The translations under genes were made by a program, and so were the position numbers. This document shows positions 18,989-35,980 of a stretch of DNA of 64,000 nucleotides, in pieces; position 1 is the stretch's first letter, and every line of letters begins with the position of its first letter. Under the pieces are notes generated by a model, which made no database searches, was not told the origin of the DNA, and saw only the letters and a program-made list of their open reading frames with translations. Source of the stretch: Gordonia polyisoprenivorans (GTDB lineage: Bacteria > Actinomycetota > Actinomycetes > Mycobacteriales > Mycobacteriaceae). The stretch is from the NCBI RefSeq assembly GCF_017654315.1, contig NZ_CP072203.1:1364001-1428000 (forward strand). Direction: 5' to 3'.

Positions 18989-19663
18989 TCAGCGGGCGCG
19001 GCGGGCGAGTCGCTCGGAGTCGGCGATCAGCACGCTCTTGCCCTCCAGGCGCAGCCATCCGCGCTGGGCGAAGTCGGCGAGCGCCTTGTTCACGGTCTCG
19101 CGCGAGGCCCCGACGAGCTGGGCGATCTCTTCCTGCGTGAGGTCATGGGTGACGCGCAGCGAGCCGCCTTCCTGGGTGCCGAAGCGCTGGGCCAGCTGCA
19201 GGAGCTGCTTGGCCACACGTCCGGGCACGTCGGTGAAGATCAGGTCGGCGAGGTTGTTGTTGGTGCGACGCAGACGTCGGGCCAACACGCGCAGGAGCTG
19301 CTCGGCGATCTCCGGGCGGTCCTTGATCCAGGCGCGCAGCGCATCCCGGTCCATCGAGACCGCGCGGACCTCGGTCACCGTGGTTGCCGAGCTGGTGCGC
19401 GGACCGGGATCGAAGATCGACAGCTCGCCGAACATGTCCGACGGTCCCATGATCGTCAGCAGGTTCTCGCGACCGTCGGGAGACCGACGGCCTACCTTCA
19501 CCTTGCCGGACAGGATGATGTACAGCCGATCACCGGGTTCGCCCTCGTGGAAGATGACATGTCCCCGCGGAAAGTCGACAGGCTGAAGCTGCTTGGTCAG
19601 TGCCGCTACGGCAGAGGGCTCGACACCCTGAAAAATGCCTGCCCGCGCCAGTACTTCCTCCAC
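18989..19663 (-). CDS. crp: cAMP receptor protein Crp/GlxR (Rv3676-like)
   Basis: Global cAMP-responsive regulator of 224 residues, the same length as M. tuberculosis Crp. The GTG at 19663 is preferred to an ATG 6 codons upstream because it gives the family length and start. The cyclic nucleotide-binding domain includes [20 protein letters not shown] and the phosphate-binding cassette [18 protein letters not shown] near residue 83. A long dimer helix follows, then a winged helix-turn-helix with [20 protein letters not shown] near residue 173-192, where the recognition-helix Arg-Glu contacts TGTGA half-sites. Candidate operators for it appear at 28030 and 35040. An adenylate cyclase gene lies in the same window at 49404. 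Confidence 0.95.
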
Positions 19664-19693
19664 CAAGGAGTCCCTTCTCACTCATGAATCCCG

Positions 19694-28029: not shown

Positions 28030-28045
28030 TGTGAGGGTAGTCACG
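28030..28045. promoter_or_regulatory. Candidate Crp/GlxR site between acs and dppA
   Basis: TGTGAGGGTAGTCACG matches TGTGA-N6-TCACA at 9 of 10 defined bases. It is 79 bases upstream of the acs start and 363 bases upstream of dppA. The match quality alone is not significant in 64 kb, but the position next to a gene of acetate metabolism, a known Crp/GlxR-type target, raises its value. Confidence 0.55.
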
Positions 28046-33853: not shown

Positions 33854-34609
33854 ATGACCTCCGACCCGCTCGCACCGCTCGCCGACCTGCCCGGGGTGGC
33901 CGCCGCGGCCGACGCCGCACGCGATGCGCTGGGCGCGGTGCATCGGCATCCGGCGAACCTGCGCGGCTGGGACAAGACGGCCACCGAGGCGTCCTGGCGA
34001 GCCGGACGGTCATCGGCGGCCATCGACGGCGGTAGCGTCGAACTGCGTCGTGACGGCGACTTCGACGACCCGGTCCTCGCCGGCGCCATGCGCGTGGCCC
34101 AGGCACTCGACGGTGATTCGCTGGAAAGCCTCACCTCGGTGTTCCGGCGTGCTCCCGCACAGGCCTTCGCGCGATTGCACATGCTCGCCGCCGCCGATCT
34201 CATCGACGATCCCGACGAACTCGGCCGCCCGCGCGCCGATGCCGACGTCGCGACCCGCCTGGATCTGCTCAGCCAGTTGATCACCGGCGGCACCAGGGTG
34301 GGCGCACCGGTCCTCGCGGCCGTCGTCCACGGGGAATTGCTGAGCCTGAACGCCTTTCGATCCGCCAACGGGATCGTCGCCCGCGCCGCGTCGCGGTTGG
34401 TGTGTACGTCGTCGGGTCTTGATCCGCACAACCTCGGCGTCCCCGAGGTGACATGGCTGCGGCGGGTCGCCAACTATCGCGTACTGGCGGAGGCCTTCGG
34501 CACCGGCCGTGCCGAAGCGCTGGGGGAGTGGATCGTGTTCTGTTGCGAGGCGCTCACCGCCGGTGCGGCAGAAGCGAAGTCGATCGCCGACGCCGCACGG
34601 GCCGGCTGA
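33854..34609 (+). CDS. Degenerate Fic-fold protein (Rv3662c-like)
   Basis: A 251-residue helical protein in the position of Rv3662c. Two features suggest a Fic-domain origin. Near the N-terminus, SSAAIDGG (residues 53-60) resembles the class II inhibitory helix motif S-S-x-IEGN. Further on, LNAFRSANGIVAR (residues 165-177) aligns with the Fic core HPFxxGNGRxxR, but the catalytic His is Asn166 and the first Arg is Ile174. An Arg equivalent (Arg177) and the NG pair remain. AMPylation by the usual mechanism is therefore unlikely; it may bind a nucleotide or act as a scaffold. It follows the dpp operon by 75 bases and ends at a hairpin. The fold call is inference. Confidence 0.65.
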   Translation: MTSDPLAPLADLPGVAAAADAARDALGAVHRHPANLRGWDKTATEASWRAGRSSAAIDGGSVELRRDGDFDDPVLAGAMRVAQALDGDSLESLTSVFRRAPAQAFARLHMLAAADLIDDPDELGRPRADADVATRLDLLSQLITGGTRVGAPVLAAVVHGELLSLNAFRSANGIVARAASRLVCTSSGLDPHNLGVPEVTWLRRVANYRVLAEAFGTGRAEALGEWIVFCCEALTAGAAEAKSIADAARAG

Positions 34610-34618
34610 CCGCGCGGT

Positions 34619-34666
34619 ACAACACCGGGCTCACACAACACCGGGTCCACACAACACTGCGGGCGG
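34619..34666. repeat. Three tandem 16-bp repeats after the Fic-like gene
   Basis: Direct copies of ACAACACCGGGNNCAC begin at 34619 and 34635, and a third, degraded copy at 34651 runs into the following hairpin. They start 9 bases after the stop codon. The repeat count may vary between strains. Confidence 0.75.
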
Positions 34667-34698
34667 CGATCCGGTTCGAAAACCGGGTCGCCGCCCGC
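34659..34698. terminator. Strong hairpin between convergent Fic-like gene and RNA locus
   Basis: A stem of 17 paired bases (34659-34669 and 34671-34676 with 34681-34686 and 34688-34698) with loop CGAA. It follows the Fic-like gene on the plus strand. It could also stop read-through of the minus-strand RNA gene. Confidence 0.8.
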
Positions 34699-34704
34699 AT
34701 AGCA

Positions 34705-35024
34705 CGAACGAAAGCTACCAAGCGTGCTTGGTGGGTTGTGGGTACCGCCTCGGCGATTGACCACGGTCATCTGTCCGAATACCGTTCCGGCGCTGCCAAT
34801 CTCGTCCCATCACGACGCCATCAGATGATGTCGTCGGCGCTGTCCGAGGGCCGGGGCGCTGCCTCGAGGGTAGCCGTTCACATGGCCGCGATGTCGCAGG
34901 CGCACAACACTTGTGCCTTATGCGGCGCGCTCCGCGTGGGTACTTGCCGCTCGTGCTGGGAAGTGCTCGGAATGGGGGTCCGCTCCTTCTCTTCCGGGGC
35001 GAACTTTGCCTTCCGAGGTTCCGT
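34705..35024 (-). ncRNA. Candidate Ms1/MTS2823-type RNA polymerase-binding RNA
   Basis: No protein gene is supported in these roughly 320 bases. In M. tuberculosis the abundant stationary-phase RNA MTS2823 (Ms1 in M. smegmatis, about 300 nt, binds core RNA polymerase) lies between Rv3661 and Rv3662c on the Rv3661 strand. The same two genes flank this gap, and the minus strand is the matching strand. A promoter fits: TTGATG (35059-35054), 17-base spacer, TACAAA (35036-35031), predicted start near 35024. A small palindrome ACCAAGCGTGCTTGGT (34717-34732) near the far end, followed on the minus strand by a T-rich stretch, could be the 3-prime end. I cannot fold the RNA or check the family covariance model, so the call rests on gene order and promoter. 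Confidence 0.55.
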
Positions 35025-35030
35025 ATGACC

Positions 35031-35059
35031 TTTGTACACCGTGATCGCGATCACATCAA
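35031..35059 (-). promoter_or_regulatory. Promoter of the candidate Ms1-like RNA with embedded Crp palindrome
   Basis: On the minus strand TTGATG and TACAAA are separated by 17 bases. CGTGATCGCGATCACA at 35040-35055 lies inside the spacer and edge of the -35 element; its core GTGATCGCGATCAC (35041-35054) is a perfect 14-bp palindrome, and it matches TGTGA-N6-TCACA at 9 of 10 bases. Binding there would cover the promoter, a geometry that favours repression. Confidence 0.6.
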
Positions 35060-35134
35060 GACTCAAGCGTGTCAATGTTCGGTGGCGTTCACGTCACCGA
35101 CGACTGGTGCACTGGTGCAACGGTTTACGGCATT

Positions 35135-35980
35135 TCAGAGGTGCAGGCTGACGCTCGCCGCGGCGGTGCGTCGAGGCCTGGTGAGACGGATTCCGACGCC
35201 GCATCCCACCGCGGCGCCGAGCCCCAGGGCCACCGCCGCGGCCAGCGCCGGCGCGCCGGCGAACGACGGGTCCGGATCGCGGTCGAAGTCGAGGATCGGC
35301 CAGCCGTTGTCCTCGGCGTGCCGGCGTAATTGCTTGTCGGGGTTCACCACCGTGGGCCGCCCGACGACCTCGAGCATCGGCAGATCGGTCACCGAATCCG
35401 AGTAGGCGTAGCAGAGGTCGAGATCGTAGCCGTGCTCCTGCGCGATCTGCAGGATGGCCGCGGCCTTCTGTTCCCCGTAGCAATAGAAATCGAGGTCGCC
35501 GGTGTAGTGGCCGTCGGTGATGTGCATCCGGCTGGCACGCACGTGATCGACGCCCAGCATGGCGCCGATCGGCTCGACCATCTCCTGCCCCGACGCCGAT
35601 ACCAGGGCGATGGCATGTCCCTTCTGCCGGTGCGCGTCGATGAGATCGACCGCACCGCTGTAGACGAGCGGCCGGACGACGTCGTCGATGGTTTCCGCGA
35701 CGATCCGGTTCACCTCGGAGACATCCCAGCCCTGACACATCGTGGTGATGTGCCTGCGCAGCCGCTCGACGTGGTCGGCGTCGGCAGCCGAGCGGGCAAA
35801 GCTCAACTGGGTGACGGCCGAACGAAGCAGCGTGCGGGTGTCGAGCAGGCCCTCGGTGAAGAACTGGCGACTGAAGGCGAGGACCGACGATTTCGCGATG
35901 ACGGTCTTGTCGAGATCGAAGAACGCGGCGACCGGCGGCGTCTGATGGACCCGCGGGCGCTCATCGCTCATTTCGGGCAT
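35135..35980 (-). CDS. HAD-IB family phosphatase (Rv3661-like, SerB-related)
   Basis: A 281-residue HAD subfamily IB hydrolase. Motif I is FFDLDKTVIAKSS near residue 21 (nucleophile Asp), motif II is ALVSASGQEMVEP near residue 125, and motif IV is CYAYSDSVTDLPMLE near residue 190. The family includes phosphoserine phosphatase and lipid phosphatases, and the C-terminus has a hydrophobic segment (about residues 243-262) before a basic tail, suggesting membrane association. A second ATG 3 codons downstream (35971) is an equally likely start. The gene is flanked by two regulatory RNA loci, as in M. tuberculosis. Confidence 0.88.
   Translation of the reverse strand: MPEMSDERPRVHQTPPVAAFFDLDKTVIAKSSVLAFSRQFFTEGLLDTRTLLRSAVTQLSFARSAADADHVERLRRHITTMCQGWDVSEVNRIVAETIDDVVRPLVYSGAVDLIDAHRQKGHAIALVSASGQEMVEPIGAMLGVDHVRASRMHITDGHYTGDLDFYCYGEQKAAAILQIAQEHGYDLDLCYAYSDSVTDLPMLEVVGRPTVVNPDKQLRRHAEDNGWPILDFDRDPDPSFAGAPALAAAVALGLGAAVGCGVGIRLTRPRRTAAASVSLHL

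Follow-up and report, generated by a model that had tools for sequence, protein, structure and literature searches.

The 525-base gap at positions 34610-35134 of the window, the whole 64,000-nt stretch of the Gordonia polyisoprenivorans chromosome analysed here, almost certainly encodes the Gordonia form of the RNA Ms1, and the promoter of this RNA carries a CRP-type dyad that is a candidate operator for Crp-cAMP. The identification is based on a full-length match to the Ms1 model, the presence of the RNA across the genus, its fold, compensatory base changes, the synteny on the HAD side and a conserved promoter. Ms1 identity together with an Ms1-like role is very probable, and binding to core RNA polymerase and accumulation in stationary phase would be expected of the Gordonia RNA by analogy with its relatives. 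Ms1 itself is not new to Gordonia and has already been reported there. In the passages available from Arnvig 2011, G. bronchialis is named as a carrier of Ms1/MTS2823 (PMC3207917), and a passage of PMC9130861 includes Gordonia among the genera listed with Ms1.

In a relaxed Rfam search, the family RF02566 (Ms1) matched the minus strand at 34651-35024 with a score of 120 bits (E=2.6e-31), and the match covers the whole model (positions 1-304 of 304) and defines a gene of 374 nt. An Ms1/MTS2823-type RNA had been proposed for this position and strand in the initial annotation, and comparison with the Ms1 covariance model, one of the checks suggested there, gave this full-length match, though under the Rfam gathering score of 162, which is a curated annotation cut-off and not a biological feature. 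With the default Rfam cut-offs, nothing was called in the 525-base gap. The 5' end placed at 35024 is also where the RF02566 model begins. However, the size of ~320 nt predicted for 34705-35024 was too small, because the 3' hairpin (34659-34698) lies outside that segment and the model match runs on to 34651, and the RNA is therefore ~370 nt. That the locus is instead a 6S RNA, an unrelated structured RNA or an untranscribed spacer is highly improbable. 6S RNA and Ms1 are described as structurally related in a passage of PMC9130861, and the Ms1 transcript is here predicted from sequence, but this reading is countered by the full-length Ms1 match and by the compensatory changes described below. 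The relaxed Rfam search, taken to E=5, returned nine matches with no 6S family among them, and 6S identity was rejected on this ground.

Folding, the second suggested check, was likewise favourable: the RNA at 34654-35024 folded with -172.9 kcal/mol (z = -4.9), and none of 100 shuffled sequences was as stable. Covariation was assessed in the 23 Gordonia sequences of similar length, out of 58. The consensus structure of these aligned sequences includes 81 pairs, intact in 98.0% of cells; 16 of the 81 have changed on both sides, a count that was reached by 0 of 500 shuffles. Slid partners gave 0-5 such pairs, although this control favours the real structure, which comes from the very alignment tested. 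For a weaker covariation measure, further pair types, 26 of the 500 shuffles did as well. The central stem with hairpins at the 5' and 3' ends was recovered, most of the central-stem pairs being invariant in the 23-sequence set, and the computed consensus fold has internal loops in the central region, the area of the open bubble of Ms1.

The terminator-like hairpin at the 3' end (34659-34698, minus strand; helix 14) has an outer stem of nine pairs that is invariant in all 23 aligned sequences. The terminator scan, which requires a T run, did not call this hairpin, in which there is no clear T run. The lone match of that scan, at 34717-34732 against 0.5 expected, falls inside an internal Ms1 stem. 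The hairpin is nearly symmetric and lies between convergent genes, and a match of 18.8 bits to the 3' end of the Ms1 model was obtained on the plus strand as well. Given this near-symmetry and the plus-strand match, the hairpin may therefore end the transcripts of both strands.

The gap is flanked by the HAD ORF on the minus strand, which ends at 35135, and by a convergent plus-strand gene, which stops at 34609, in agreement with the 525 bases given earlier. The HAD-IB hydrolase gene (35135-35980, minus strand) is upstream of Ms1 and matches PF12710 (E=2e-36) and TIGR01490 (196.9 bits; cut-off 98.3), which upholds its HAD label. As judged by synteny, it is in the Rv3661 position. Synteny of Ms1 with a HAD hydrolase on one side was described earlier in passages of PMC9130861 and PMC3207917, and the assignment of the gap to the Rv3661-Rv3662c interval is consistent with that description. 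The convergent downstream gene (33854-34609, plus strand), an ORF of 251 aa, is in the Rv3662c position by synteny. It has no Pfam and no NCBIfam match at E<=0.001; no family was assigned, and the 'Fic-like' label of the initial annotation could not be sustained. The word 'Fic' does appear among the annotation words for Ms1 neighbours in a passage of PMC9130861. An Ssd/CpaE-type gene is located past the HAD gene, as seen from Ms1, and a 6C RNA (RF01066; 36191-36266, plus strand) lies between these two genes, scoring 73.5 bits, above its cut-off. A 6C RNA adjoins Ms1 in seven of the eight loci scanned. A passage of PMC4117774 names ncRv13660c as having an upstream CRP site, and this RNA, going by its number, is perhaps the same as 6C RNA.

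Within the genus, the Ms1 model matches 58 of 59 genomes, none of the 59 reaching the gathering cut-off. Across the order, matches were obtained in 55 of 200 genomes, and 21 of the 200 reach the cut-off, all 21 belonging to the genus g23; both counts were made with stricter filters, by which weak matches are lost. Genus g23 is apparently Mycobacterium, judging from its size and position in the family and from how highly it scores with a model named after M. smegmatis. A DNA search with the Ms1 region found matches in 37 of 61 genomes, all of the same genus, the closest to the queried 431-base region being those in G034 (98%) and G001 (96%). The Ms1 gene is also present in the 59th Gordonia genome (G080, locus L177), where the match is weak (30.7 bits). 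At that locus, promoter, dyad and Ms1 5' body are all present, together with a long arm and a terminator region containing a poly-G run, and the G runs and the long arm would explain why G080 was missed in the family search. The same Ms1 stretch is shared by G080 and L181 (Gordonia tangerina), in which the terminator region consists of long G runs, perhaps an assembly artefact.

As compared with Ms1 of M. smegmatis (RF02566; passages of PMC4191392), the Gordonia RNA matches the model over its full length and shares the HAD-side synteny, an A as first base, a sigma-A-like promoter and a long central stem between a 5' and a 3' hairpin. It differs in scoring below the Rfam cut-off and in its length, 374 versus about 304 nt, the difference arising mainly from a 139-nt arm. 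Passages of PMC3207917 and PMC11077062 likewise place MTS2823 (ncRv13661) of M. tuberculosis between the genes in the Rv3661 and Rv3662c positions; there, RNA polymerase binding was observed by RIP-seq (PMC11077062), whereas the Gordonia RNA is predicted here from sequence.

The expanded apical arm of 139 nt (34756-34894, minus strand) was measured between two conserved blocks. Both blocks could be located in 54 of 58 Gordonia loci, and there the arm spans 30-218 nt, with lengths clustering near 30-43, 70-80, 128-151, 165, 189-190 and 214-218 nt; the remainder of the Ms1 RNA varies far less. The arm is 66-69 nt in the 23 relatives measured (66-68 nt in 20 of 21 sequences of g23, 69 nt in both of g24 and 68 nt in one of two of g25); for the remaining sequences, including that of g26 and all 13 more distant ones, the arm-length pattern gave no measurement. 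Folded alone, the arm was no better than shuffled sequences (z = -0.71; 51 of 200 as stable), and an independently stable arm fold was rejected. The arm resembles an expansion segment that has no sequence conservation of its own, and its free variation suggests that this end of the RNA may lie outside the polymerase contact.

The promoter TTGATG-N17-TACAAA pointed out in the initial annotation is indeed located on the minus strand and faces the RNA, with the -35 hexamer TTGATG at 35059-35054 and the -10 hexamer TACAAA at 35036-35031. A consensus promoter scan, which requires closer matches to TTGACA/TATAAT, called none in the region (0.1 expected), and the promoter was not accepted as stand-alone evidence. 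Rather, it is supported because it is conserved across 58 Gordonia Ms1 loci. It is a sigma-A-like promoter with A as the first base, the start site being placed by homology. Among 55 distinct Gordonia promoters, the TTG of the -35 hexamer is invariant, and variation in the -10 hexamer affects five of its six positions, chiefly the third and sixth.

The spacer of this promoter contains the CRP-type dyad TGTGATCGCGATCACG (35040-35055, minus strand), which has the form GTGA-N6-TCAC, is centred at -23.5 from the predicted start and shares two bases with the -35 hexamer. Counted within the 64-kb window, dyads of this kind do not exceed chance (two found, 1.26 expected), and the window count was rejected as evidence; the dyad gains its weight from the comparison across genomes. 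A second site in the window, TGTGA-N6-TCACG at 28030-28045 (plus strand), is found 378 bases before an ORF that by eye resembles an oligopeptide-binding lipoprotein. In all 58 Gordonia promoters scored, GTGA-N6-TCAC occurs at a single register, and it is present in the 59th genome (G080) as well. None of the eight half-site columns varies among the 55 distinct promoters (zero entropy); the six middle columns have 0.95-1.61 bits, with 39 distinct N6 sequences between the invariant half-sites. Hence, a TGTGA-N6-TCACR-type dyad is at a fixed place in the promoter, the arrangement expected of a Crp-regulated promoter.

When named genomes were scanned for the dyad and hexamers, with no part of the Ms1 body included, 11 loci were obtained, nine in Gordonia and one each in Williamsia and Jongsikchunia. 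All 11 include the Ms1 5' motifs ACGG, 6-7 bases downstream, and GAAGAGAAG, 36-37 bases downstream; CACGCGGAGC is present in nine, and CTTGGTAG, the form seen in the window, in two only. Seven of the 11 loci were subjected to Rfam analysis and all seven match Ms1, L181 weakly.

Outside Gordonia, the exact dyad was found in 12 of 21 sequences of g23, both of g24, neither of the two of g25, the one of g26 and seven of 13 from outside the family; these 13 belong to the 25 genomes beyond the family that matched in the 200-genome order search. The seven are all from family f14 of the same order (7 of 11), and the two sequences of family f4 are without it. As the dyad is absent from nine of the 21 g23 sequences, both of g25 and six of the 13 more distant ones, it is dispensable for Ms1 as such. 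On a tree of 30 trimmed Ms1 sequences (21 of g23, two of g24, two of g25 and five of the 58 from Gordonia), the distribution of intact and broken dyads corresponds to three changes, and 0 of 500 shuffles were as low, near-copies contributing to the low count. Among 396 genomes of g23, the bare Ms1 promoter pattern was detected in 334 and the pattern with an intact dyad in at least 207, a lower bound, the dyad pattern additionally demanding a G before the -10 hexamer. Two of these genomes, G419 and G352, have two copies of the Ms1 promoter pattern each, those of G419 on two contigs, which would represent duplication or assembly redundancy.

These distributions bear on the possibility that the GTGA and TCAC columns of the Ms1 promoter are intrinsic features read by sigma/RNA polymerase, with no repressor involved. 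This explanation is unlikely. It agrees with the location of the dyad in the spacer, overlapping the -35 hexamer, and with the hexamers remaining in place in g23 where the dyad is broken. However, the symmetric, invariant 4+4 columns around a free N6 fit a protein dimer, and up to 127 of the 334 g23 genomes retain the promoter pattern while lacking the exact dyad.

The regulator proposed to act at the dyad is the product of the crp gene (18989-19681, minus strand; 230 aa), located 15 kb from Ms1. Its best matches among solved structures are the Crp/Fnr family proteins 3i54, 3d0s, 3mzh and 3h3u (E about 1e-136), which we take to be M. tuberculosis CRP. A segment of 15 residues, presumably the DNA-recognition helix, is identical in 3i54, the best of these. 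No HTH_Crp_2 match in the genome is stronger than that of the crp product (66.4 bits; cut-off 27), and nine further matches scored 22.6-28.1 bits, two of them just above the cut-off (28.1 and 27.8). All 61 genomes searched contain relatives of Crp, and its own genome gave one match only (whole protein, E<=0.001). Genome-wide, the motif TGTGAN6TCACR was located at 18 sites, TGTGATCGCGATCACG among them, corresponding to 28 hits over both strands as compared with four for a reversed control. One of these sites lies 428 bases before an ORF that by eye resembles a resuscitation-promoting factor; a passage of PMC4117774 gives rpfA as a CRPMt-regulated promoter.

Repression of the Ms1 promoter by Crp-cAMP, as predicted from these features, stands at about an even chance. 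A Crp-cAMP dimer would bind the GTGA-N6-TCAC dyad at -23.5, between the promoter hexamers, and, covering both of them, would exclude the sigma-A holoenzyme while cAMP is high during growth. Ms1 would then be made when cAMP falls or when another factor displaces Crp, a fall of cAMP being the presumed release signal. In passages of PMC3871856, cAMP opposes dormancy in M. smegmatis, and no simple growth-phase curve is given there. Passages of PMC4117774 associate CRPMt bound near the start site with repression and place its activating sites upstream. The arrangement in Gordonia resembles that of CRPMt-repressed promoters such as frdA (passages of PMC4117774) in the CRP-type dyad near the start site and the closely related Crp, but differs in that the target is a polymerase-binding RNA and the binding of Crp is predicted.

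Alternatively, the RNA is Ms1 and the dyad serves another dimeric regulator, either a second Crp/Fnr protein or some other factor, or serves activation instead of repression, which appears no more than a modest possibility. Binding of Crp at the dyad is deduced from the motif, the nine further HTH_Crp_2 matches supply other potential candidates, and the regulator of Ms1 is stated as not known in PMC4191392 (section 24 of the passages available). Against activation, a dimer at -23.5 spanning both hexamers differs from the upstream activating CRPMt sites in passages of PMC4117774. Against another regulator, the half-sites and their spacing equal the TGTGA-N6-TCACR motif, and the sole strong Crp-family gene (66.4 bits) is close to that of M. 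tuberculosis CRP, with no second whole-protein match in the genome.

Sites for LexA were sought with the motif TCGAAC-N4-GTTCGA, which we take to be the LexA box, allowing up to three mismatches. None was present in the Ms1 promoter, and a LexA box there was rejected. The lone LexA-like match in the gap, at 34676 with three mismatches, is inside the terminator hairpin, and the whole window includes 56 such matches versus 41.9 expected. A passage of PMC4191392 (section 24) cites binding of LexA to the MTS2823 locus in M. tuberculosis, but, with no box in the promoter, control of the Ms1 locus by LexA rather than Crp is very doubtful.

A link between Crp and Ms1/MTS2823 was not found in the available passages of open-licence PMC papers. 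The CRP passages in PMC3207917 concern MTS0997, those in other papers naming both CRP and MTS2823 have subjects other than MTS2823, the word CRP is absent from PMC11656743, PMC11077062 and PMC4191392, and a passage of PMC12709188 mentions CRP as a sigma-A partner. The ChIP study of M. tuberculosis CRP (PMC4117774) names, in the passages available, three sRNAs with upstream CRP sites, and MTS2823 is not among them. The Ms1 reported earlier from Gordonia agrees with the present one in genus, RNA and synteny, but the passages concerned (PMC3207917 and PMC9130861) contain neither a structure nor an arm length nor a promoter operator for the Gordonia RNA. The new parts are thus the conserved dyad in the promoter and the variation in arm length, neither of which was found in the literature passages.

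Since none of the 59 Gordonia genomes examined reaches the Rfam gathering cut-off, Ms1 is missed in all of them at that setting, and the RF02566 model would gain from Gordonia members. More broadly, the comparisons could equally well be accounted for, or not, by a picture in which Ms1 would be under direct Crp-cAMP repression across the Mycobacteriaceae and part of the more distant family f14, the operator would have been lost in some Mycobacterium clades, where Ms1 would then be made in growth, and the Gordonia arm would vary freely between 30 and 218 nt. According to a passage of PMC4191392 (section 24), Ms1 rises about 130-fold in stationary M. smegmatis, with the sigma factor and regulator left open. 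The conserved Crp-type operator offers a testable answer to how Ms1 is switched on. MTS2823 in M. tuberculosis has an RPKM of 6748 in growing and 43600 in stationary cells in a passage of PMC3207917, and if the M. tuberculosis dyad is broken, this would be a possible reason for the abundance of MTS2823 already in growth. If the repression by Crp-cAMP holds true, cAMP would set the amount of core RNA polymerase that is tied up.
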